Source: Wenzhouxiangella sp.
Lineage (GTDB): Bacteria > Pseudomonadota > Gammaproteobacteria > Xanthomonadales > Wenzhouxiangellaceae
NCBI GenBank assembly: GCA_007134485.1
Contig: SLKT01000113.1
Location: forward strand, 1-43,970
Length of the DNA: 43,970 nucleotides
Reading direction: 5' to 3'
This document shows positions 2,100 to 32,095 of this stretch, one piece after another. Position numbers and translations under genes: made by a program. The notes below the pieces were generated by a model. The model did no database searches. It saw nothing but the letters and a program-made list of their open reading frames with translations, and was not told the DNA's origin. The stretch's first letter is position 1. Every line of letters begins with the position of its first letter.

Positions 2100-4367
2100 T
2101 CAAGTTTCGACCACGATCCTTGCACGCTTCAGCAACGTTGAGTTGCCGATCACCGAGAGCGAACTGGTCACCATCGCGATCACCCCGATCATCGGGTGGA
2201 GTAACCCGATGGCGGCAATGGGAATGGCCGCGACGTTGTAGCCGAACGCCCAGTAAAGGTTCTCGACAATCTTGCGGAATGTGGCCTTGGACAGGCGGAT
2301 GGCTTCGACGACCTTGGTCAGCTCACCGGAAACCAGGGTCACGTCGGCCGCCTCGATGGCGACATCGGCGCCTGCGCCGATGGCGATGCCCACATTGGCC
2401 TGCTTGAGCGCCGGGGCGTCGTTGATGCCGTCGCCGACCATGGCCACGTGGTCCCCGTAGCGCTCCTGCAGCTTGCGGATTTCGTCGACCTTGCCTTCGG
2501 GCAGCACCCCGGCCAGTACCTCGTCGATGCCAACTTCTTCAGCCACTGCTTTGGCTGCACGTTCGTTGTCGCCGGTCACCATGGCCACCTTCAGCCCGAG
2601 TTCGTGCATCGCATCGATGGCCGATTTCGAATCCGACTTGATGGCATCGGCCACGGCCACGATGCCGATGGCCTTGCCATCGGCGGCGACCAGGACGGCG
2701 GTTCGTCCCTTTTCTTCCAATTCGGCAAGCGCCTCGTCCAGCGCTTCCAGATCGGTGATGTTCGATTCGGCAAGCAGGCGGCGGTTGCCAATCAGGATTT
2801 TGCGATCGTCCACCATCCCCTCGACCCCGCGCGCGGTCACCGACTTGAACGACTCGACTTCACCGAATTGCACCTCGCGATGCCGGGCGCCGTCGACCAC
2901 GGCCCGGGCCAGTGGGTGCTCGGACGCATTCTCCACCGCCGCGGCCAGTGCCAGTACATCGTCTTCGCCATGACCGTCGGCGGCAACCACCTCGGTCAGT
3001 TCCGGTTCGCCCCGGGTAATGGTGCCGGTCTTGTCGAGCACCACCATGCGGATGTTCTTCAATGTCTGGATGGCCTCGCCCGAGCGGATCAGCACGCCGC
3101 GCTCGGCGCCAAGGCCCGAACCGACCATCAGCGCGGTCGGCGTGGCCAGGCCCAGGGCGCAGGGGCAGGCGATAACCAGCACGGCGATGGCGGCCAGCAG
3201 CGCCAGAATGACCGGCCCGGCGGTTGGATCAACCCATGGCAGAAAACCGGCGCCCCATTCCAGAATCGGGCGCATTGGTTCGGCAAAGAGCAGCCAGGCG
3301 CCGAAACTGGCCAGGGCGATGACGATCACCACCGGGACAAAGCGGGCGGTGACCCGATCGGCAAACTCCTGGATGGGCACCTTGGACGACTGCGCTTCCT
3401 CGACCAGCTTGATGACCTGTGACAGGAACGTATCGGCGCCGATGCGTGTGGCCTTGACCTTGAGCCGGCCTTCGGCATTGATCGTTGCACCCAGGACTTC
3501 ATCCCCGGGTTGCTTGCTGACCGGAATGGACTCGCCGGTGGCGATGGATTCGTCGATGTGGCTTTCGCCCTCGACAATTTCGCCGTCAGTGGGAATCTTG
3601 TCGCCGGGTCGCACGATCATGATGTCACCGGCTTGCAGCTCCTTGACCGGCACTTCGACTTCCTCGCCGTCGCGCTCTACACGGGCGGTTTTCGCGCTCA
3701 GGGTGAGCAGTTTCTTGATCGCTTGCGACGCGCGTCCCTTGGCCTTGTTTTCGAGGTAGCGGCCAAGAATGTGGAACGTCATGATGGTTGCCGCCATCTC
3801 AATGAACGAGGTCATGGGGAAGAAGAACCCCACCAGGCCGATCAGGTAGGGCGGCAGCGAACCCATGGAGATCAGCACGTCCATATTGGCGGTACGGTTG
3901 GTCAGCGAACGCCAGGCCGAGACATGGGTAGCCCAACCACCGTAGAGGAAGACGACCGGAAAGGCGAGAACGGCGATGATGGCCAGATAGCCGGGAATTG
4001 GCTGCCAGAACATGTGTGGCATCATCAGGATCATGATGATGGTGGTGGGAATGGCCGCGATCACGAAACGACGCCAGGCCCGCTTCAGGTAAACCTCCTC
4101 GGCATCGTCCCGGTCATTCGTATCGTCTTCGGTGCGAACCGATGTAACCTCGTAGCCGGCTTTCTCCACCGCTTGTTGAATCTCGTCGGCGCCTGTGAGG
4201 TCCGGATCAAATTCAACGGTTGCCTTGTGACTGGAGATACTGGTCTTGATCGATTCGATTCCGTCGAGGCGCTCGATCGACTTGCGCACAATACCGGCAC
4301 AGTGATCCGAACCCATCCCGGGGACGGTCATTTCAATCCTGGTGTGTTTGTTCGCTTTGTCGTCCAT
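2100..4367 (-). CDS. copA: Copper-translocating P1B-type ATPase (CopA-like), 755 aa
   Basis: This inner-membrane pump would export Cu+ (or Ag+) from the cytoplasm using ATP. Visible hallmarks are one N-terminal HMA domain (about residues 11-77), TGES (277-280), the ion-binding CPC in a membrane helix (401-403), the phosphorylation site DKTGT (D445), SEHPLARAV in the nucleotide domain, GDGINDAP, a helix with FGYN, and a last helix with MVTSSLSVIGN. CPC plus YN plus M..SS is the Cu+-ATPase (P1B-1) signature. The HMA metal site is odd: GMGSDHC has Ser where the first Cys of GMxCxxC should be, leaving only C23. AAGGAG stands before the start at 4367. No CueR-type palindrome was found in the 115 bases upstream, so it may be read through from the cus genes. 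Confidence 0.95.
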   Translation of the reverse strand: MDDKANKHTRIEMTVPGMGSDHCAGIVRKSIERLDGIESIKTSISSHKATVEFDPDLTGADEIQQAVEKAGYEVTSVRTEDDTNDRDDAEEVYLKRAWRRFVIAAIPTTIIMILMMPHMFWQPIPGYLAIIAVLAFPVVFLYGGWATHVSAWRSLTNRTANMDVLISMGSLPPYLIGLVGFFFPMTSFIEMAATIMTFHILGRYLENKAKGRASQAIKKLLTLSAKTARVERDGEEVEVPVKELQAGDIMIVRPGDKIPTDGEIVEGESHIDESIATGESIPVSKQPGDEVLGATINAEGRLKVKATRIGADTFLSQVIKLVEEAQSSKVPIQEFADRVTARFVPVVIVIALASFGAWLLFAEPMRPILEWGAGFLPWVDPTAGPVILALLAAIAVLVIACPCALGLATPTALMVGSGLGAERGVLIRSGEAIQTLKNIRMVVLDKTGTITRGEPELTEVVAADGHGEDDVLALAAAVENASEHPLARAVVDGARHREVQFGEVESFKSVTARGVEGMVDDRKILIGNRRLLAESNITDLEALDEALAELEEKGRTAVLVAADGKAIGIVAVADAIKSDSKSAIDAMHELGLKVAMVTGDNERAAKAVAEEVGIDEVLAGVLPEGKVDEIRKLQERYGDHVAMVGDGINDAPALKQANVGIAIGAGADVAIEAADVTLVSGELTKVVEAIRLSKATFRKIVENLYWAFGYNVAAIPIAAIGLLHPMIGVIAMVTSSLSVIGNSTLLKRARIVVET

Positions 4368-4482: not shown

Positions 4483-4803
4483 TCACTCCTCACCTTTGAT
4501 TACCTCGCGTCGATCTCGAATCCGTACGAGCTTGTCCACGGGTGAAATTGCGACGATACCGTCACCAGCCATCCCGGTATGAGCCGATTCCACGATGATA
4601 TCGGCAACCTCTTGGGCCCTGGCGGTGAAGATTTCGATCCTTGAATAGGGGACCTTCCAATCCGGTTTGAAGAAGTTCTTGTAGTCGCCATAGCCCTTCA
4701 CCGCCGTGACCGAGATTCCTCGGATATTGGCCTTGACAAGGGCCTCTTCGACTGTCTCCAGGTAGCTGTGTCGGACAATCGCATGGACCTTTTGAATCGC
4801 CAT
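4483..4803 (-). CDS. PII-like signalling protein of the metal-efflux-associated type, 106 aa
   Basis: This is a PII-fold protein: VHAIVRHSYLETVEEAL at the N-terminus, a VKGYGDY entry to the T-loop, and the B-loop TGMAGDG (76-82) followed by a basic RIRDR stretch that in PII proteins contacts nucleotide phosphates. The T-loop (about 38-52) is shorter than in GlnB/GlnK and lacks the TELYRGAEY segment with the modifiable tyrosine. PII-like proteins beside CusA-type efflux genes are a known but poorly understood subgroup (sometimes called PII-NG). It lies 14 bases after the DUF411 gene and has a strong AGGAGG. It probably binds a nucleotide and tunes a neighbouring transporter; the partner is not known. 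Confidence 0.85.
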   Translation of the reverse strand: MAIQKVHAIVRHSYLETVEEALVKANIRGISVTAVKGYGDYKNFFKPDWKVPYSRIEIFTARAQEVADIIVESAHTGMAGDGIVAISPVDKLVRIRDRREVIKGEE

Positions 4804-4817
4804 GTTTCCTCCTGTGA

Positions 4818-5354
4818 CTAGTGTCGTGACGGATAGTGGTTGTACACGCTGGTATTGCCCTGATGGTCGACCAGGTACACGTCAAAGGCCTGACGGCGGT
4901 TGCCTTGCTCCATGCCCGGCGAGCCGATCGGCATGCCCGGGACGGTCAGGCCGCGGGCATCTGGGCGTTTGGTCAGCAGGCTCTTGATATCTTCGAAGGG
5001 TACGTGGCCCTCTATGAAGTAACCGGCGGTCTTCGCGGTGTGACATGAGCCCATGGCCGGCGGCACGCCCAATTCTTCCTTGATGGGGTGCAGGCTCTCG
5101 ACTTCGCGGATTTCCACTTCGAAGCCGGCCTGTTCGGACAGCTCTGCCCAGACAGTGCAGCAGCCGCACCATGGGGTCATGTAGACCACCATGGGTTCAT
5201 CAACGGTCTCGATTTTGGCCTCGATCGAATTATGAACGCCGTTCTTGCTTGCCGGTGCTGTCGATTGGGCTTGGTCGGGTGAGGGCGAGCAGGCCGCAAG
5301 CAGGGCAATGGCAAAAACGATCGACATTGAGTTAATGGTGGTGTGTGTGTTCAT
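4818..5354 (-). CDS. DUF411 metal-binding lipoprotein, 178 aa
   Basis: This DUF411-family protein is found with copper resistance genes. With the start at 5354 the N-terminus reads as a lipoprotein signal with lipobox LAAC (C22). The DUF411 core has TPWCGCC (C63, C65, C66), then GSCHT (C104), GYFIEGHVPF, and a GLTVPGMPIGSPGME Met-rich loop; these Cys and Met residues are likely Cu+ ligands. The gene overlaps the cytochrome c stop by 23 bases; a second ATG at 5327 would remove the overlap but shortens the signal to MSIVFAIALLAAC with no positive charge. GGAG precedes the 5354 start. The reading frame stays open further upstream only because of the low-complexity His-codon DNA. Confidence 0.85.
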   Translation of the reverse strand: MNTHTTINSMSIVFAIALLAACSPSPDQAQSTAPASKNGVHNSIEAKIETVDEPMVVYMTPWCGCCTVWAELSEQAGFEVEIREVESLHPIKEELGVPPAMGSCHTAKTAGYFIEGHVPFEDIKSLLTKRPDARGLTVPGMPIGSPGMEQGNRRQAFDVYLVDHQGNTSVYNHYPSRH

Positions 5355-6147
5355 GATGGCTGTGCTCCGTGTCGTGATCGTTTTCATCGTGGTGGTGATG
5401 ATGACGATGATTTTCGCCATGACTGTCATGGCCTTCGTTGCCATGTTCCTGATCGTGGTCATGATGATGTTCATGATCTTCCGCATGATGGTGGCCGTTG
5501 TCGTGATCATGTTCATGGTCTTCAGCATTGCCATGATGGTGCTCGTGGTCATGATCATGGTCGTGCTCATGCTCATGTTCATGATCATCGTCATGATGAT
5601 GGTGATGATGTTCCACACCGGCTTCCCGGGCCGCGGCCAGCAAGTTGGCGTAATCGTCATCGGCAAAGTCGGGGAAGCGGGTCATCAGGGCAACCACGGG
5701 CAGAAGTTCATCATCGCTGTGGGTCGGACCCCAGGCCGGCATGCCGGTCATGCGGATGCCGTGTTTCGTGACCCAGAACAGTTCTTCGGGCGATCGCTTG
5801 CGCGCCGATTCGGCCAGGTCGGGTGCCGGTGGGTTGAGGCCCTGGGCCATGGCAGTGGGAGAGCCGCCGGGCGGGGTGTGACAGGCCGCGCACATGTCCT
5901 CGAACCCGACCACGGCCTCGTGGAGCAGGTCGGTATCGGTCAAGTCTGGCAGTAGCGGGCTGATGTCGCGGGCCTGGCGCGCCACCGAGTTGACGCGAAC
6001 CGTCTCGAGCACCCGGTCGGTGACTGGCCAATGTGTGCCATCAGCCGAAACATCCATGCGCCCGGACAAGGCAACGGCCCAATATGTGAGACAGGCGACG
6101 ATAAATATGATCAACAGCGTGATCAGGGCATGCTTGATAAAAGTCAT
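5332..6147 (-). CDS. Membrane-anchored monohaem cytochrome c with a giant His-rich tail, 271 aa
   Basis: An N-terminal helix (about 7-27) anchors the protein. A periplasmic class I cytochrome c domain follows, with haem motif CAACH (C86, C89, H90) and a likely Met ligand in RMTGMPAWG (M133 or M136). From residue 180 to the end (271) the chain is low-complexity His/Asp/Glu: I count 44 His in 92 residues, starting with six in a row and ending HEHTHHH. Such a tail should bind many divalent or copper ions. The gene starts 4 bases after cusA stops and overlaps the DUF411 start, so it is inside the copper operon. The cytochrome could oxidise Cu+ or carry electrons for a copper enzyme, with the tail as metal buffer; that is inference. 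Confidence 0.88.
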   Translation of the reverse strand: MTFIKHALITLLIIFIVACLTYWAVALSGRMDVSADGTHWPVTDRVLETVRVNSVARQARDISPLLPDLTDTDLLHEAVVGFEDMCAACHTPPGGSPTAMAQGLNPPAPDLAESARKRSPEELFWVTKHGIRMTGMPAWGPTHSDDELLPVVALMTRFPDFADDDYANLLAAAREAGVEHHHHHHDDDHEHEHEHDHDHDHEHHHGNAEDHEHDHDNGHHHAEDHEHHHDHDQEHGNEGHDSHGENHRHHHHHDENDHDTEHSHHEHTHHH

Positions 6148-6151
6148 GGGA

Positions 6152-9100
6152 CTATTCCTTGCTGGGTTCGAGTTCATCTGAAGTTTCCTGCTCGTTCGAG
6201 CGCGGCAATTCGCGCCGGTGCCATAGGTAGTACAGCGCTGGCATGACCAGCAGCGCGACGATCCAAACCGTGAACACCCCACCGACCATGGGTGCGGCGA
6301 TGCGCTGCATGACCTCGGCGCCGGTGCCGGTGGAAAACATGACCGGCAGCAGGCCGAGAAAGACCGTGGTTTCGGTCATGGTGATGGGGCGCACGCGTTG
6401 GCAGGCACCCTCGACGACGGCATCGCGCAGGTCGGCGCGGGTAAATGCACGCTCGCCGATTTCTTGGCGGAATCGTTGATAGGCATTGTTGAGATACACC
6501 AGCATGATCACGCCGGTTTCCGCGGCAAGTCCACCCAGTGCAATGAAGCCTACCGCCACGCCCACCGACATCTGGAAATCCAGCAGCCACATCAGCCAGA
6601 AGCCACCGGCCAGAGACAGCGGAATGGTGATCAGCACCATCGTGACTTCGAACAGTGACCGGAAAACCATCAGCAGCAAAACCACGATGATGGCCAGCAC
6701 CAGCGGAATCAGGACCGTCAGGCGTTCTCTGGCACGCTCCAGGTATTCATACTGTCCGGCAAAGCCGATCGAGTAACCACCGGGTAATTCAACCTGCTCG
6801 TCAATGACTGCGCGTGCTTCGCGCACCCAGCCGGCCAGGTCGCGGCCTTCGATATCGACGAACACGAAGCCGGCCGGTCGGGTGTTCTCGGTACGGATCA
6901 TGGCCGGACCGTCGGCGACTTCCACGCCGGCAATCTCGCCCAGGGCGATGTGTGTGCCGGCCGGGGTGACGATGGGCAGCTGACGCAGCTTTTCCGGCGA
7001 ATCGCGCCAGTCGGCCGGAAAGCGCAGATTGATGGGGAAGCGCTCCAGGCCCTCGACCGTTTCGGTCACGTCCATGCCGCCAATGCCGAATCGCACCACG
7101 TCCTGGACGTCGGCGATGTTCATGCCATGACGGGCCGCGGCGACACGATCGGGACGGATCTCGATGTATCGTCCGCCGGCCGGTCGGTCGGCAAAGGCAT
7201 TGGTCGCACCCGGCAGCTCGGTCACCACGGCTTCGATCTGCTCGGCCAGCGACTGGATCTCGGTCAGGTCCGGTCCGGTGATCTCGATACCGACGTCAGT
7301 GCGAATGCCGGTCTGGAGCATGTCGATACGGGTCTGGATGGGAAAGACCCAGGCATTGGTCAATCCGGGAAATTGCACCAGTTCATCGAGTTCACGCATG
7401 ATGTCGGCGGTGGTGATGCCCGGTCGCCATTCGCTTCGCGGTTTCAGGGTGATGAAGGTCTCGATCATGGTCAGCGGCGCAAAATCGGTCGCCGTCTCGG
7501 CCCGCCCGGCCTTGCCCATCACCCGCTTGACCTCGGGTTGCGACAGGATCAGCCGGTCGGTCTGCTGCAACAGTTCGCGCGCCTTGTCCGGCGAAAGGCC
7601 GGGCAGGGTGGTGGGCATATACATCAGATCCCCTTCATCCAGCTCCGGCATGAATTCCGTCCCCAGCCGCGATATCGGAAACAGCATCGACACCACCAAC
7701 ACCCCGGCCAGCATCGACACGATCCACGGATGATTCCCCGAAAACCGCGCCAACGGCCGATAAGCCCACTCCAGCCACCGAGCCACCGGCGACCCTCTCG
7801 TCTCCCGTCTCCCGTCTCCCGTCTTCCCCGGGCGTACGAAGTAGCCCATAAGCACAGGCACCAACGTCACCGCCAGTCCCGCTGCGGCCGCCATCGCATA
7901 GGTCTTGGTAAACGCCAGCGGTGAAAACAGTCGCCCTTCCTGGGCCTGCAGTGCAAATACCGGAAGAAAGGACAGGGCCACGATCAGCAGCGAGAAAAAT
8001 ATCGGACGGCCGACTTCCAGGGTCGCTTCGGTGATGGCCTCCCAGCGCTGCTCGGCATCCTCGGGCGGGTCGCGCTCGAAGCGTTTGTGCACGTTTTCGA
8101 TCAGTACGATGGCGGCATCGACCATCACACCGATGGAAATGATGATCCCGCCCAACGACATGATGTTGGCGTTGATGCCCTGGAAGTACATGACCAGGTA
8201 AGCCACCAATACGCCCATGGGCAGGCTGATCAGCAATACCAGAGACGATCTCAGGTGCCAGAGAAACAGGCCGATGACCAGCACCACGATGAAGAACTCC
8301 AGGGCAAGTTTTTCCCACAGGGTGCGAATGGAGCGGTCGATCAATGCCGAGCGATCATAGGTCTCGATGATCTCGACGCCTTCGGGCAGGCCGGGACGGA
8401 GTTCATCCAGTCGCTCCTTGACGGCATCGATGACCTGGCGTGCATTTTCACCCGAGCGCATGACCACGATGCCCGAGACCACTTCGCCTTCGCCATCGAG
8501 TTCGACGATGCCGCGGCGCTGGGCCGGACCTCGTCGGATTTCGGCGACCTGGTCGAGCAACACCGGTGTGCCGTTGTCGGTCACACCCACCGGGATGCGC
8601 TTGAGATCATCCAGCGACTGGACATAACCGGTGGCCCGCACCATGTACTCCGCCTCGGCCATTTCGATCAGCGAACCGCCGGCCTCGGAACTGCCCCGGC
8701 GAATGGCTGATTCAAGCTGACTCAGTGTCAATCCATGGGCGCGCAGCGCATTGGGATCAGCCACCACCTGGTATTGGCGGACCATGCCGCCGGCCGTGGC
8801 CACCTCCGAGACGCCGGGCACGGCCTGCAGCTCGAATTTCAGGAACCAGTCCTGCAGGGTCCTGAGCTCGGACAGATCGTGGTTGCCGGTTCTATCAACG
8901 AGTGCATATTTGTAAACCCAGCCCACGCCTGAGGCATCCGGGCCCAGCTCGGCGGTGACCCCGTCGGGCAGGCGGCCCTCGACCTGGGACAGATATTCCT
9001 GCACCCGTGAGCGTGCCCAGTACAGATCGGTACCGTCCTCGAACAGCACGTAGACAAAGGAATCACCGAACATGGAAAAACCACGCACGGTATGTGCGCC

Positions 9101-9331
9101 CGGTACCGACATCAGCGCCGTGGTCAATGGATAGGTGACCTGATCCTCGACCACTTGCGGGGCCTGCCCCGGAAACATGGCCCGGACAATCACCTGCTTG
9201 TCAGTCAGGTCGGGAATGGCGTCAACCGGGGTATTGCGGACTGCATACAGACCGGCAACCCCGGTGACGATGGCCAGGATGATGATCAGCAGCCGGTTGG
9301 CCATGGACCAGCGAATGAGGGCGTCAATCAT
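6152..9331 (-). CDS. cusA: CusA-type heavy-metal RND efflux pump, 1059 aa
   Basis: This is the proton-driven inner-membrane component of a Cu+/Ag+ tripartite pump. It starts MIDALIRWSMANRLLI as CusA/CzcA proteins do, has RND signatures such as DAIPDLTDKQVIV, the TM4 acidic motif VMVDAAIVLIEN, the Met-rich strand GDLMYMPTTLPG, and a C-terminal TM block ending near ALYYLWHRRELPR. Length matches the family (about 1045). A linker after GYFVRPG reads GKTGDGRRETRGSP and is encoded by a heptad DNA repeat (7796-7828) that also occurs between genes. The reading frame is open upstream to a TTG at 9430 that overlaps the cusB stop; I prefer the ATG at 9331 because it fits the family. It is followed at 4 bases by the cytochrome gene. 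Confidence 0.95.
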   Translation of the reverse strand: MIDALIRWSMANRLLIIILAIVTGVAGLYAVRNTPVDAIPDLTDKQVIVRAMFPGQAPQVVEDQVTYPLTTALMSVPGAHTVRGFSMFGDSFVYVLFEDGTDLYWARSRVQEYLSQVEGRLPDGVTAELGPDASGVGWVYKYALVDRTGNHDLSELRTLQDWFLKFELQAVPGVSEVATAGGMVRQYQVVADPNALRAHGLTLSQLESAIRRGSSEAGGSLIEMAEAEYMVRATGYVQSLDDLKRIPVGVTDNGTPVLLDQVAEIRRGPAQRRGIVELDGEGEVVSGIVVMRSGENARQVIDAVKERLDELRPGLPEGVEIIETYDRSALIDRSIRTLWEKLALEFFIVVLVIGLFLWHLRSSLVLLISLPMGVLVAYLVMYFQGINANIMSLGGIIISIGVMVDAAIVLIENVHKRFERDPPEDAEQRWEAITEATLEVGRPIFFSLLIVALSFLPVFALQAQEGRLFSPLAFTKTYAMAAAAGLAVTLVPVLMGYFVRPGKTGDGRRETRGSPVARWLEWAYRPLARFSGNHPWIVSMLAGVLVVSMLFPISRLGTEFMPELDEGDLMYMPTTLPGLSPDKARELLQQTDRLILSQPEVKRVMGKAGRAETATDFAPLTMIETFITLKPRSEWRPGITTADIMRELDELVQFPGLTNAWVFPIQTRIDMLQTGIRTDVGIEITGPDLTEIQSLAEQIEAVVTELPGATNAFADRPAGGRYIEIRPDRVAAARHGMNIADVQDVVRFGIGGMDVTETVEGLERFPINLRFPADWRDSPEKLRQLPIVTPAGTHIALGEIAGVEVADGPAMIRTENTRPAGFVFVDIEGRDLAGWVREARAVIDEQVELPGGYSIGFAGQYEYLERARERLTVLIPLVLAIIVVLLLMVFRSLFEVTMVLITIPLSLAGGFWLMWLLDFQMSVGVAVGFIALGGLAAETGVIMLVYLNNAYQRFRQEIGERAFTRADLRDAVVEGACQRVRPITMTETTVFLGLLPVMFSTGTGAEVMQRIAAPMVGGVFTVWIVALLVMPALYYLWHRRELPRSNEQETSDELEPSKE
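7796..7828. repeat. TCTCCCG heptad repeat inside cusA
   Basis: Three perfect TCTCCCG units occupy 7801-7821, flanked by degenerate units. On the cusA coding strand this is a GGGAGAC repeat, the same heptad that forms part of the repeats at 9355 and 36224. It stays in frame and encodes a charged linker, GDGRRETRG, after a transmembrane helix. Confidence 0.8.
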
Positions 9332-9354
9332 GATGTGCTCGCTGCGCTGCGCGC

Positions 9355-9422
9355 GGGGAGACGGGAGACGGGAGACGGAAGACGGGGTTTTCCTTGTTCC
9401 TTGTTCCTTGGGCCTTGAGCCT
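9355..9422. repeat. Composite heptad repeat between cusB and cusA
   Basis: A run of GGGAGAC/GGAAGAC heptads (about 9355-9386) is followed at once by a second heptad family, CCTTGTT, CCTTGTT, CCTTGGG, CCTTGAG (about 9392-9419). It fills most of the 95-base cusB-cusA gap and enlarges what would otherwise be a tightly packed operon junction. The same two heptad families in the same order recur at 36224-36308. Confidence 0.8.
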
Positions 9423-9426
9423 GTCT

Positions 9427-10737
9427 TCAATGATCATGCTGCCCTCCCATGCGGTCGTGGCCGGCGCGGATGTTGGCTTCGGAGTCGATCAGGAACTGGC
9501 CGGAGGTGACGACTACTTCGCCTTCTTCCAGGCCGTGGATGATTTCGGTGTAGGGGCCGGATTCCAGGCCGGCGTGGATTTCGCGGATGCTGAAGCGTCC
9601 TTCTGCTTCGCGGATGACCACGCGTTCCTCAGTGCCGGTGCGGATGATGGCTTCGGTGGGTATGATCAGCAGGTTTTCCTTGGGCCCGCCAAAGATCGTC
9701 ACGCCGGCCCAGTCGCCGGGGCGCAAGGTGCCGTTGGGGTTGTCCAGCACCACGCGCACTCGGGCAGTGCGGGTTGTTGGTGAGAGTTCGGGATAGATGT
9801 AGTCGACCTGGCCGCGCAAGCGTTCCTCGGGATGGCTGGTGCGCTGGATTTGCACCATTTGTTCGTCGGCCAGCCAGTCGATCTGGCCGCCGAATACATC
9901 GGCGTTCAGCCAGACCGTGCCGGGGTCGGCAATCTGCAGAATCTCGGTACCGGGCGAGACGAACATGCCCCGTCGTACATCCATGTCGGAGACATAACCA
10001 TCGCGTTCGGCATACCAGGGCACCCAGGTCATGACCTGGCGATCGCGTTCGAGCCGATCGATCACCCGGTCCTGCATGTCAAGGACTTCCAGGCGCTGGC
10101 GCGTCGCTTGTATCTGTGAATCTCGTCCTGAGCGGAGCGCCTGCAGATACTCCTCCTGCATGTTGACCAGTTCACGCGAGTAGAGGGTGAACAGTCGCTG
10201 GCCCCGGTCGATGGTCTCCCCAATGGCGTTGACATCGAGTTCACCGATCCAGCCTTCCACTCTGGGGTGGATATGACTGAGTCCGGATGGATCAATCTCG
10301 ATGCGTCCAATGGTGTCGATGCGCCGAAACAGGCGACTGCGCCTGACTTCCGCAGTTCTGATATTCATGGTCTGCAACACGCCAGGTGACAGATCGACCG
10401 AGATCTCGCCATCGTCGGCGCGCTGGCGCTCGACGAGGTTCATACCGCAGATCGGGCAGCGACCGGGCTCGTCACGCACGATCTGCGGATGCATGGGGCA
10501 GGTGTAATAGCTGCTTTCTCCAAGCGCGCGGTCTGCCAAAGTCTCGCCGTTGTCGCCGTTGTGCTCATGATCATGATCGTGGTCATGATCGTGGTCATGA
10601 TCGTGTTCTTGATCATGGTCATGGGCCTGGTGCTCGTCATAGTCGTGATGAGCATGTTCATCGTGGTCGTTGCCGCAACCGACCAGCATCAAGATTGCGA
10701 TCGTCGCGATAGTCAGAAAGATTCGGGTCGTTTTCAT
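9427..10737 (-). CDS. cusB: CusB-type periplasmic adaptor with His-rich segment and heavy-metal-binding domain, 436 aa
   Basis: This membrane-fusion protein links CusA to CusC. A lipoprotein signal ends at lipobox LVGC (C21). A low-complexity segment follows with 15 His in residues 25-59, mostly HD dipeptides. Next is the short heavy-metal-binding domain with [17 protein letters not shown] (about 78-102; C80, M82, C94, C97, M99). The adaptor body has barrel-sandwich and beta-barrel segments, for example [20 protein letters not shown] and [12 protein letters not shown]. It overlaps cusC by ATGA at 10737-10734, so the two are translationally coupled. The His stretch would hold several metal ions near the pump; E. 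coli CusB has no such segment. Confidence 0.93.
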
Positions 10738-11993
10738 GGTGAGTCCTCTGCGGCAAGCCAGGCCAGTTCGACGCGAGCGCGCAGCACGGCCAGCCGGGTT
10801 TCGATCAGTTCAATGCGTTGTTCCAGTTCGGCCAGTCGTGTTCGCACCAGCTCGTCGAAGGTGGCCCGATCACTGCGATAGGCTTGCAGTGTGGATTCAA
10901 GGGTCAGTTCGGCTTCAGGAAGAATGATGTCCTCGAGCAGTTCCATCTGCCGCTGGTAGTTGTCGGCAGCGGCGCGCTGGTTGAGAAAACGGCCTTGCCA
11001 TTCCTGAAGTCGCAAACGGTGGTCATGTGTGCTGGCATCAGCCCGTGCCTTGGCGGCAGCCACGCGGCGATCCTGGCGGTTGCCGGTAAACAGTGGCAGG
11101 CTCAATGACACCATGCCGAACAGCTTGTCTGACATGCGCCCGCCCATGGGATCCGAGCCGCGCTGGTGTCCGTAGCCGGCCTCGATCATCCACATGGGTC
11201 GATAGGACTGGCGAGCCAGTTCGACCTCGATGCGGCCGGTTTCAGCGCGCAGGGCCTGGGCTTCGACAACCGGGTGGTCGGCCAGACGCGCATGATCATC
11301 GCGCTCGGGCAGGGCGCGATCCCAGACAGGCAAGTCGGGTGCGTGGTCATTGTTCGGCCACTGACCGGTCCAGCGCGCCAGGCGACTGGCTGCATCTTCC
11401 AGTGCCGTCATGCGATCGATTACGCGCCGGGCCTGCACCGAGCGTTCCAGGCGGGCCTGGTCGACATCGCGCTGCCGGGCCGTCCCGGCACGAAAACGTG
11501 ATTCGGCCAGGTCGAGCATCTCGTCGAGTGCTTCCAGGCCGTCTTCATCGACTGACTTGAAGTGAAAAGCGGCCGCCCAGTCCAGCCAGGCCAGGCGCAC
11601 CTCGCGTTCGATCTCGAGTCGACCGGCGTGCCATTCGGCCTCCAGCACCCGGCTTTCGGACAGGCTGCGCTCCCCGGACAGCTGCCGCGTCTGTCCGGCC
11701 GGCCATTCCTGGCGTATCCCGAACATGTACATGGTCATCATGTCGCTGGCCAAGGGATCGTCGACCGGTATGCCTTCGGCGCCCATGAACAGTTGCGGGT
11801 CGGGTAGGGCGGCTTCGGCCGGTGCCTGCTCTTCATAGGCCAGCGCTCGACTTTTCAGTGCCTGAAGGCCGGCATCGCGCTCAATGGCCATGTCGATGGC
11901 CAGCTCCAGCTCCATGGCCGGGGCTTCCATCCAGAAAATCAACAGAATGACGGCCGACAACCATGTTCGGCGCGTACGGGTCGGGTTTTGCAT
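10734..11993 (-). CDS. cusC: CusC-type outer-membrane efflux protein (TolC family), 419 aa
   Basis: This is the outer-membrane channel of the Cus pump. It has an N-terminal signal peptide (about residues 1-26, ending EAPAMELEL), then two repeats of long amphipathic helices: [38 protein letters not shown] and, in the second half, [18 protein letters not shown] with [17 protein letters not shown]. The [16 protein letters not shown] segment is the usual TolC-family coiled coil. Met residues cluster near 86-92 (MMTMYMFG), possibly metal-related. It is the second gene of the operon after copL and overlaps cusB. It is slightly shorter than E. coli CusC (about 457). Confidence 0.92.
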
Positions 11994-12089: not shown

Positions 12090-12497
12090 TCAGGAGATCT
12101 GTGGAGGCCGCAGCAGCGGTGCCGGAGTGAGAGAAGGCAAGTGGTTGATTTCAGCCGGCCGGTTGGTTGCGGGACCCGGTGATTGAAGGGTCGCGAAGCG
12201 CGGGATGGGAATCAGGGTCAGACCGGCGCAGGAACAGCGGCAGTCGGGCCCGCAGCACTCTTCAGCCAGTAAATCGGACTGGAGAGCCTGGTCTTCCACA
12301 ACCGGGGCTGAATCATCGGATGCGTGGTGGGGGCAGCCACCCTTGCCCGAATGGGCAGAATCCGTGTCTTGATCGACTTCGATCTGGGCCTGACGATCAG
12401 GTTCGTCATGTCCCGCCATAGCGTGCACGGGAACACCAGCCATCAGCAGCGATAAGGCCAGCAACAGGTACCCAGTAGTGCACAGGACCGATTTCAT
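12090..12497 (-). CDS. copL: CopL-like secreted metal-binding protein, 135 aa
   Basis: A clear signal peptide (about 1-28, ending VPVHAMA) is followed by a small acidic protein rich in likely copper ligands: GGCPHH near residue 56, and ECCGPDCRCSC near residue 80 with five Cys in eleven residues. It ends in a Pro-rich tail, LLRPPQIS, typical of the CopL family described in Xanthomonas copper loci, where CopL is needed for copper induction. It is the first gene of the copL-cusCBA array, 96 bases before cusC. The family call rests on the Cys cluster, the tail and the context; the sequence is too short for certainty. Confidence 0.75.
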   Translation of the reverse strand: MKSVLCTTGYLLLALSLLMAGVPVHAMAGHDEPDRQAQIEVDQDTDSAHSGKGGCPHHASDDSAPVVEDQALQSDLLAEECCGPDCRCSCAGLTLIPIPRFATLQSPGPATNRPAEINHLPSLTPAPLLRPPQIS

Positions 12498-19250: not shown

Positions 19251-19946
19251 ATGAATACCCCCAACTTGATCACGGTGGAGTCGCCCGGCTCCATGATGTC
19301 CAGAATCATTGTTGCAGCGTTCTTCGTAATTGCCGTCAGTCTCAATTCCCAAGCCGAGGAGTGCGCCTGTCTGGAAGCGTTTTCCGAGGACTCGAGCCAT
19401 CTGATGACCCGCGAGGTGATGCAGGCCATGGCTGATCGCTTCGGGCCGGAGAATGCCACTTTCGAGCCCCATTTCGATCCAGATCAGGATTTTGGGGGGC
19501 CTTACGCCTTTTCGATCCCTCTGGGGCGTTTCGAAGAAGACATGAATGGTGCAACCATCACCTCCACCGCGCAGCTATCCGTGGCACTTCGACGTCTGGT
19601 CTCGCGCGAGCAGATTGAATCCGACCAGCACCTCATGCGCGATCTCGAACTCGATTCCGACGATGATCTGATCGAGGCCGTTGCTCGCGCGCCCATGGGG
19701 CAATTCGGCGAACCGTATGATTACGAGGAAGTCGATGGGCCGGGTGATCTGGCCATTTTTCATCGCGACCCCGAACCGATGCTGTTCATCGCGTGCGGCA
19801 ATGCCTTGATGGAATTGGCTGTCGGTCGCCATCAATTGCCGGAAAATCCACCCGAGGACGCAGCGGAAGCCTTCACGGCCAGTGAGCTCGAAATCATGAG
19901 CGCTCTGGCTGAAAAGCTGATCAAGCACTGCTCGACCGATCAGTAA
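19251..19946 (+). CDS. Secreted protein of unknown family, paralogue A, 231 aa
   Basis: A hydrophobic signal (MSRIIVAAFFVIAVSLNSQA) is followed by an acidic domain that begins with EECACLEA. Landmarks are REVMQAMADRFGP, DPDQDFGGPY, LGRFEEDMNG, STAQL, SREQIES, FGEPYDYEE and DGPGDLAIFH, then IACGNAL and a final KHC. Four cysteines (the CAC pair, IAC, KHC) are shared with a paralogue at 31421-32095, roughly two thirds identical by eye over the mature part. I recognise no family. The start could be 19251 or the ATG pair at 19293/19296; the signal peptide is intact either way, and no strong ribosome binding site decides. CsbD and a lipoprotein follow on the same strand. Confidence 0.8.
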   Translation: MNTPNLITVESPGSMMSRIIVAAFFVIAVSLNSQAEECACLEAFSEDSSHLMTREVMQAMADRFGPENATFEPHFDPDQDFGGPYAFSIPLGRFEEDMNGATITSTAQLSVALRRLVSREQIESDQHLMRDLELDSDDDLIEAVARAPMGQFGEPYDYEEVDGPGDLAIFHRDPEPMLFIACGNALMELAVGRHQLPENPPEDAAEAFTASELEIMSALAEKLIKHCSTDQ

Positions 19947-31420: not shown

Positions 31421-32095
31421 CTATTCCGCCGCTTCCGGGCAGTGCTCGATCAGCTTTTCAGCGAAAGCAACCATGATGTCCTGCTCGCTGGCCGTCATCG
31501 CCTTCGGAGCATCGTCCGGAGCTTCCTCGGGCAGGCCATGAAGGCCGACGGCCACTTCTATGAGGGCATCACCACAGGTGATCATCAGCAACTCCTCGGG
31601 TGAATGGTGCAAGATCGCCAGATCGCCGGGGCCATCGATTTCTTGGTAATCGTAGGGCTCGCCGAACGGCCCCCTGGGCGCACGTGCAATGGCCCCGATG
31701 ACATCGTCGCCGGGTTCCATCTCGAGGTCACGCATGACCTGTTCCTCGGATTCAATCTGCTCGCGAGAGCGCAGGTGATTCAGAGCCACGGCGAGCTGCG
31801 CGGTGGAAGTCAGGGTCACGCCATCCATCGACTCCTCGAATCGGCCCAAGGATATGATGAAGGAATAAGGCCCGCCAAAGTCCTGATCGGGATCGAACTG
31901 CGGCTCGAAAGTGGCATCGTCCGGGCCGAATCGTTCCGCCATGGCCTGCATCACCTCCTGGCTGACCAGCCGTGCGGAATTGTCGGCATGGGCCTCCAGG
32001 CAGGCGCAGTCGTCGGCCATGGCCTGGGGCGCCAGGCCGAAGGTCAGTCCGAAAGTGGCAATGGCGGCGATGGAAGAATTCCTTAATGAAAACAT
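31421..32095 (-). CDS. Secreted protein of unknown family, paralogue B, 224 aa
   Basis: The signal (MFSLRNSSIAAIATFGLTFG, then LAPQAMA) precedes DDCACLEA and the same landmarks as paralogue A: QEVMQAMAERFGP, DPDQDFGGPY, LGRFEESMDG, STAQL, SREQIES, FGEPYDYQE, DGPGDLAILH, ITCGDAL and EHC. All four cysteines are conserved with A. It lies between the DsrE-like gene and mfd. Function is unknown; the conserved Cys and the acidic surface suggest a folded periplasmic domain with possible redox or metal role. Confidence 0.8.
   Translation of the reverse strand: MFSLRNSSIAAIATFGLTFGLAPQAMADDCACLEAHADNSARLVSQEVMQAMAERFGPDDATFEPQFDPDQDFGGPYSFIISLGRFEESMDGVTLTSTAQLAVALNHLRSREQIESEEQVMRDLEMEPGDDVIGAIARAPRGPFGEPYDYQEIDGPGDLAILHHSPEELLMITCGDALIEVAVGLHGLPEEAPDDAPKAMTASEQDIMVAFAEKLIEHCPEAAE

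Follow-up and report, generated by a model that had tools for sequence, protein, structure and literature searches.

A class I cytochrome c with a histidine-rich tail, encoded between cusA and copG in a Cus-type operon of Wenzhouxiangella

Results

Genes around the cytochrome

The window (the whole stretch of DNA analysed, 43,970 nucleotides of contig SLKT01000113.1 from Wenzhouxiangella sp.) carries on its minus strand a series of genes in the order CutF-like leader, TolC, CusB, CusA, cytochrome, CopG (DUF411), P-II and Cu-ATPase. The features are as follows.

2100..4367, minus strand: Cu-type P1B ATPase with CPC and MxxSS (TIGR01511, 565.3 bits; motifs)
4483..4803, minus strand: P-II-like protein (PF00543, E 2.1e-12)
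4818..5354, minus strand: DUF411/CopG-family protein with a CGCC motif (PF04214, E 3e-25 with the frame scanned together with its upstream extension; 6wis_A, E 4.2e-29)
5332..6147, minus strand: one-haem cytochrome c with an N-terminal anchor and a His-rich tail, 271 aa (ORF; PF13442; AlphaFold2)
5332..5610, minus strand: the tail, residues 180-271 (44 His of 92), plus the stop codon (residue count)
5878..5892, minus strand: haem-binding motif CAACH, residues 86-90 (ORF translation; alignment invariance)
6152..9430, minus strand: CusA-type RND pump (match to E. coli CusA; three Met segments)
9427..10737, minus strand: CusB adaptor that carries an HMBD and, near its N-terminus, a stretch rich in His, 15 of 40 residues (PF19335, PF16576)
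10734..11993, minus strand: TolC/CusC-type outer membrane protein (PF02321)
12090..12497, minus strand: CutF-like Cys-rich leader ORF ending in LLRPPQIS, 135 aa (translation by eye)

A reading made earlier from the sequence alone (the sequence-only reading) had placed an intact, single-frame fusion gene with tight junctions between cusA and the DUF411 gene, and the ORF coordinates agree. The cytochrome ORF runs on the minus strand from an ATG at 6147 to a stop codon ending at 5332; 4 nt separate the stop of CusA (6152) from its start, and the ATG of the DUF411 gene (5354) lies inside the tail, giving an overlap of 23 nt. A plus-strand gene at 5332-6147 was ruled out, because that frame carries an internal stop.

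CusA of the window scored 1264.6 bits against E. coli CusA and 580.9 bits against ZneA, which rules out a Zn-type pump. The Met segments align with those of the E. coli protein, and we take their three Met residues to be the Cu(I)/Ag(I) path; judged from its sequence, this pump belongs to the Cu(I)/Ag(I) class. The start listed for it is a TTG, and translation probably begins at an ATG further on. The DUF411 protein, the only one encoded in this genome, has the CxCC and conserved Met (GMP/SPGM) of the CopG family and is assigned to it. P-II matches also follow CopG in L086, L087, L100, L101 and L106. The metal-binding domain of the Cu-ATPase, in which the usual motif is CxxC, reads GMGSDHC.

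The multicopper oxidase (MCO) domain PF07732 was absent at E 1e-10 from this genome (94.6% complete) in a search that detects it in E. coli; it was present in 6 of the 43 genomes of the window's bacterial family and in 1 of the 15 of its clade. CusF (PF11604) was found in none of the 43 family genomes by a search that detects it in E. coli and Caulobacter. The operon is accordingly a Cus variant without CusF.

A promoter scan of the window returned 3 sites against 3.7 expected. Terminator-like sites numbered 17 against 8.3 expected, two of the best lying inside the His-codon stretch of cusB. Elsewhere in the window, 19251-19946 (plus strand) and 31421-32095 (minus strand) encode two similar exported-looking proteins about 11 kb apart, with CACLEA near the start and FDPDQDFGGPY.

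A CutF-like leader upstream of tolC

The leader ORF was recognised by eye from its signal-like N-terminus, Cys motif and Pro-rich C-terminus upstream of the OEP gene. The accessible portion of PMC9973294 describes CutF-like sensors by these same three marks and by a position upstream of an OEP or copper gene. It matched no Pfam family up to E 10, hence not DUF2946, and we therefore call it 'CutF-like' only. Among 14 loci searched, 12 had a TolC match; by pattern search, 10 of these 12 Cus-linked relatives carry an ORF ending in LLRPP or PLRPP upstream of tolC, and the remaining 2 lack sequence at that position. In the gap between leader and tolC the predicted fold is more stable than those of dinucleotide-shuffled sequences (z -3.83), with the SD paired. 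Pairing of the SD itself was no better than in shuffles for the window (0.36) and for 5 of 8 relatives (0.28-0.50), the values for L129, L130 and L124 being 0.03-0.06. The leader is perhaps a copper-sensing translational switch for the Cus operon. From its marks and its recurrence upstream of tolC, induction of the operon by copper appears likely.

The cytochrome body

Up to residue 179 the protein had been read as a normal small cytochrome c with the haem motif CAACH and a single N-terminal anchor, and this description was borne out. The body matches PF13442 (E 1.2e-11, 45.2 bits against a Pfam cut-off of 27), a class I cytochrome c. C86, C89 and H90 are invariant in alignments of 20 and 53 rows. 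Across the 53 rows the segment MTG-MPAWG is invariant, as are M133 and M136, either of which is a candidate distal haem ligand. AlphaFold2 modelled residues 1-179 with a mean pLDDT of 93.8 and a hydrophobic helix at 2-28. The solved folds nearest to this model (Foldseek) are small one-haem cytochromes, the best being 9vr0, cytochrome c552 of Thioalkalivibrio paradoxus (E 4.8e-3, probability 1.00, TM 0.43 by query); none reached E 0.001. Compared by sequence with solved structures, the protein gave weak matches alone (best E 0.055), and in NCBIfam no family exceeded its cut-off. From these features we infer a periplasmic protein, exported, anchored in the inner membrane and carrying one attached haem.

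The histidine-rich tail

Residue counting upheld the claim that the last 92 residues hold 44 His interspersed with acidic residues: residues 180-271 contain 44 His, 16 Asp and 14 Glu. At its richest, the tail has 20 His within 40 residues; in the 34 ORFs of the window checked, CusB comes next (15) and the others have at most 6. The tail is probably disordered. Its His codons are 29 CAT and 15 CAC, and the tandem-repeat rows inside it match at 62-79%. At the DNA level the tail is no pure repeat, and the mixture of codons together with the inexact repeat matches speaks against recent growth by pure expansion.

It had been asked at the outset whether the tail is confined to this genome as a repeat expansion. 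This was ruled out: at least 3 His follow the matched domain in 71 of the best 80 of 182 GTDB homologues, and among relatives in other genomes the three nearest (86, 87 and 90% identity over the cytochrome body) carry a tail of 57-81 residues, 25-34 of them His. None of the other tails listed reaches 44 His, so the window's is the maximum in size. In the 15 rows of the window's clade the tail ranges from 2 residues (L123) to 92 (window), that of L115 having 85-87. L123 adjoins CusA, and its two tail residues include no His. A tail so variable and dispensable is unlikely to be a fixed storage device, and the 44-His size would be partly lineage-specific growth. The sequence-only reading of a high-capacity tail beside copper genes is partly supported.

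Recurrence beside CusA

The same reading proposed asking whether the fusion recurs beside cusA, and in the window's bacterial family it does. The cytochrome was found in 22 of the 43 genomes, at 27 places with its own included. We took pumps with at least 54% identity to the window's CusA as CusA-type and, after dropping 13 of 59 HME rows that covered fewer than 1000 residues, retained 25 CusA-type and 21 distant HME genes (up to 17 candidates scored per genome; the counts are lower bounds). Of the 25 full-length CusA-type genes, 16 are followed by the cytochrome in the same orientation and at most 2.5 kb away, as against 0 of the 21 distant pumps (Fisher p 3e-6). Nine CusA-type genes have no cytochrome, including that of G012, which is 86% identical to the window's CusA; the cytochrome is therefore an optional part. 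In G012 an ATPase like the window's (named by eye; locus L193) comes after CusA, and its metal-binding domain has the same GMGSDHC.

Of 14 genomes with CopG, 12 have the cytochrome. For the 14 relatives in the window's clade, an HME pump is nearby in 12 and CopG in 6; L109, L116 and L120 are CusA-linked and show no CopG within the available sequence. CusB is His-rich (7-20 His in 40) in 6 of the 9 clade relatives in which it was found, not in L112 and L113, and the CusB of L110 is incomplete.

We also clustered the neighbours of a first set of relatives, the best 80 of 182 in GTDB, together with the window's own locus. P-ATPases were found at 28 loci, HME pumps at 26, OEP at 23, MCO at 18, CusB at 16, CopG at 13 and CopB at 13 (OEP, MCO and CopB named by Pfam, the others by likeness to the window's proteins). 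One of the loci, L004, on a contig filed under an Elusimicrobia MAG, is a Wenzhouxiangella-type operon with an 86% identical cytochrome, probably a binning error.

Copper markers in a gammaproteobacterial sample

At least 39 of 370 evenly drawn gammaproteobacterial genomes carry the cytochrome family (E 1e-25, own included; up to 9 candidates scored per genome, the count being a lower bound). We examined 39 places besides our own, from 38 genomes. Copper markers were recognised with HMMs derived from genes next to the first loci, and the same HMMs served for samples and for controls, the latter being other PF13442 cytochromes. For the controls we turned to 20 of the 38 genomes, picked mostly for long contigs, and took from each the best listed match outside the family; G330 gave none among the matches listed, which left 19 places in 19 genomes. 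Two matches were skipped, one at the edge of a contig (G149) and one in a frame of 525 residues (G279); the control from G289 lies in a 489-residue frame, and L185 is a short contig.

A strict copper marker lay within 5 kb at 21 of the 39 places versus 4 of the 19 controls (Fisher p 0.024, unpaired); three of the marked controls have a P-ATPase and one has CopG. With any marker of the set except CusB, the counts were 25 of 39 and 5 of 19. At 18 of the 39 places there was no strict copper marker within 5 kb. MCO was nearby at 17 places and CopG at 6. One control cytochrome, from another subfamily (L192, near 7706-8200), adjoins CopG; its genome, G326, also holds L168.

Tail histidines and copper context

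In the class sample a marker was present at 15 of the 20 places with at least 5 tail His versus 6 of the remaining 19 (p 0.010). Among the 26 places in the window's family other than its own, the figures were 16 of 18 versus 2 of 8 with fewer His (p 0.003). On a tree of 64 rows (L172 and L173 left out) the link ran in the expected direction and was not significant once relatedness was counted: of 5 tree pairs on starred branches, on average 1.4 went the same way, 0.1 went the other way and 3.6 showed no difference. A His tail does not by itself imply a copper operon; that strict rule was ruled out by L123 and by L140 (21 His) and L168 (18 His), whose His-rich tails lie without copper markers. 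The gene in L140 (7346-8134, minus strand) adjoins apparent plsX and fabH, read from the sequence; similar neighbours also occur at a few loci of the first set.

Two separate cytochrome lineages in the window's family are both Cus/CopG-linked and His-rich. The second comprises six loci whose tail has a DUF4440/SnoaL-like domain (Pfam on L101 and L103 alone); in its sister paralogues L126, L128, L131, L132 and L134 a body of the same kind bears a tail of different chemistry, long and rich in Glu and Pro with 0-1 His, and none of them has copper markers. The architecture of cytochrome c, His stretch and DUF4440/SnoaL-like domain is seen in L098-L101, L103 and L106 (the same as L124, L125, L127, L129, L130 and L133); most of these proteins end in a His stretch, and most lie near CusA and CopG. 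Tails in L155, L158 and L161 are also 163-216 residues long.

Discussion

Comparison with known systems

The system is built from known kinds: a class I cytochrome, a His-rich tail, Cus and CopG. The cytochrome shares CxxCH and conserved downstream Met residues with class I PF13442 cytochromes (c552/c6) and differs from them by the N-terminal anchor helix, the MTG-MPAWG segment and the His-rich tail; in the second Cus-linked lineage this segment reads MTAMPSHL. With E. coli CusCFBA the operon has in common CusA, CusB, a TolC-type protein and the three CusA Met segments, but it lacks CusF and adds the cytochrome, CopG, P-II, the Cu-ATPase and the CutF-like leader. The CopG protein resembles CopG (PF04214; PDB 6WIS) in CxCC, in the GMP/SPGM segments and in a sequence match over 121 residues, whereas its gene differs in overlapping that of a His-tailed cytochrome. 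In cutFOG of Rhodobacter capsulatus, so far as the accessible portion of PMC9973294 describes it, a Cys-rich leader with a Pro-rich C-terminus likewise precedes copper genes including a CopG homologue; the window's leader instead precedes tolC-cusBA and the cytochrome, and the window has no multicopper oxidase. A literature search, with most subscription journals outside its reach, returned no recognisable description of a His-tailed copper cytochrome.

A possible role in copper oxidation

We infer the metal bound by the cytochrome, its partners and the direction of its electron flow as follows. The reading that we prefer, at a probability of roughly 0.4, is that the protein is part of a copper-detoxification operon, its haem accepting electrons from Cu(I) and passing them to the respiratory chain while the tail buffers Cu(II). 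The Cu-ATPase would deliver periplasmic Cu(I), to be handled by CusA and CopG; Cu(I) would be oxidised, and the haem would take the released electrons, via CopG or near CusA, and hand them on to the respiratory chain. The tail would bind the resulting Cu(II), or other excess metal nearby, as a buffer of tunable length.

Of the two possible redox directions we favour flow from Cu(I) to haem, which the sequence-only reading gave as an example (Cu+ oxidation followed by capture), in view of the absence of PF07732 and CusF, the single DUF411 gene and the terminal oxidases of the genus. According to the part of PMC7691419 accessible, core genomes of Wenzhouxiangella encode cbb3 and other terminal oxidases, a possible electron sink. 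DUF411/CopG is linked to copA and cusCBA and has been proposed to act in Cu(I) oxidation, as excerpts of PMC7558416 state. In other lineages the neighbours include MCO and CopG, for which Cu(I) oxidation is known or has been proposed, and this counts for the oxidative reading. Coupling of electron transfer to copper storage, suggested from the sequence at the start, gains from the in-frame fusion recurring beside cusA and from the DUF411 protein being CopG, and loses from the variable tail and the His tails at non-copper places.

The tail might serve as a metal buffer only, shielding the cytochrome and its haem attachment from copper, with the haem engaged in normal electron transport during copper stress. 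Copper affects the assembly of periplasmic c-type cytochromes (PMC10304878, in the portion accessible, citing Durand 2015), CusB of the same operon is His-rich without a haem, and tail length varies widely and can be nil. An ordinary cytochrome, however, needs no place downstream of CusA, yet 16 of 25 CusA-type genes have it there, and we regard this explanation as somewhat unlikely.

Under reductive loading, Cu(II) caught by the tail would be reduced by the haem to Cu(I) for export by CusA, and the protein would replace the missing chaperone CusF. His and Asp ligands favour Cu(II), CusF was found in none of the 43 family genomes, and in the clade HME pumps are nearby in 12 of 14 relatives and CopG in 6. 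Periplasmic copper reduction would raise toxicity, however, and the other recurrent neighbours, MCO and CopG, stand on the Cu(I)-oxidising side; we consider reductive loading unlikely.

His-rich tails bind several metals, and the null result on the tree and the His-tailed members at non-copper places would suit a tail whose main metal is zinc or nickel, or one grown as low-complexity sequence with little function, the copper linkage being inherited by descent, but the two separate Cus/CopG-linked His-rich lineages, the sister paralogues with 0-1 His and no markers, and the mixed codons and imperfect repeats make this quite improbable.

Beyond the operon, the preferred oxidative reading might extend to a haem-based family for periplasmic copper redox, associated with CusA, CopG or MCOs, that would provide respiratory-linked copper oxidation in many proteobacteria; in the window's lineage it would replace the missing MCO, with the His tail as tunable capture of the product. 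We hold this wider proposal to be doubtful. A strict rule that the cytochrome replaces MCO was ruled out by the sampled places with MCO close by; beside an MCO it cannot be the replacement of that MCO.

Here a Cus system lacking CusF includes both a His-tailed cytochrome and a CusB rich in His. The cytochrome is a concrete candidate for the electron acceptor in Cu(I) oxidation that involves no multicopper oxidase, or for the acceptor of electrons from CopG, and its recurrence in copper gene clusters of other bacteria suggests a link between electron transfer and copper detoxification.
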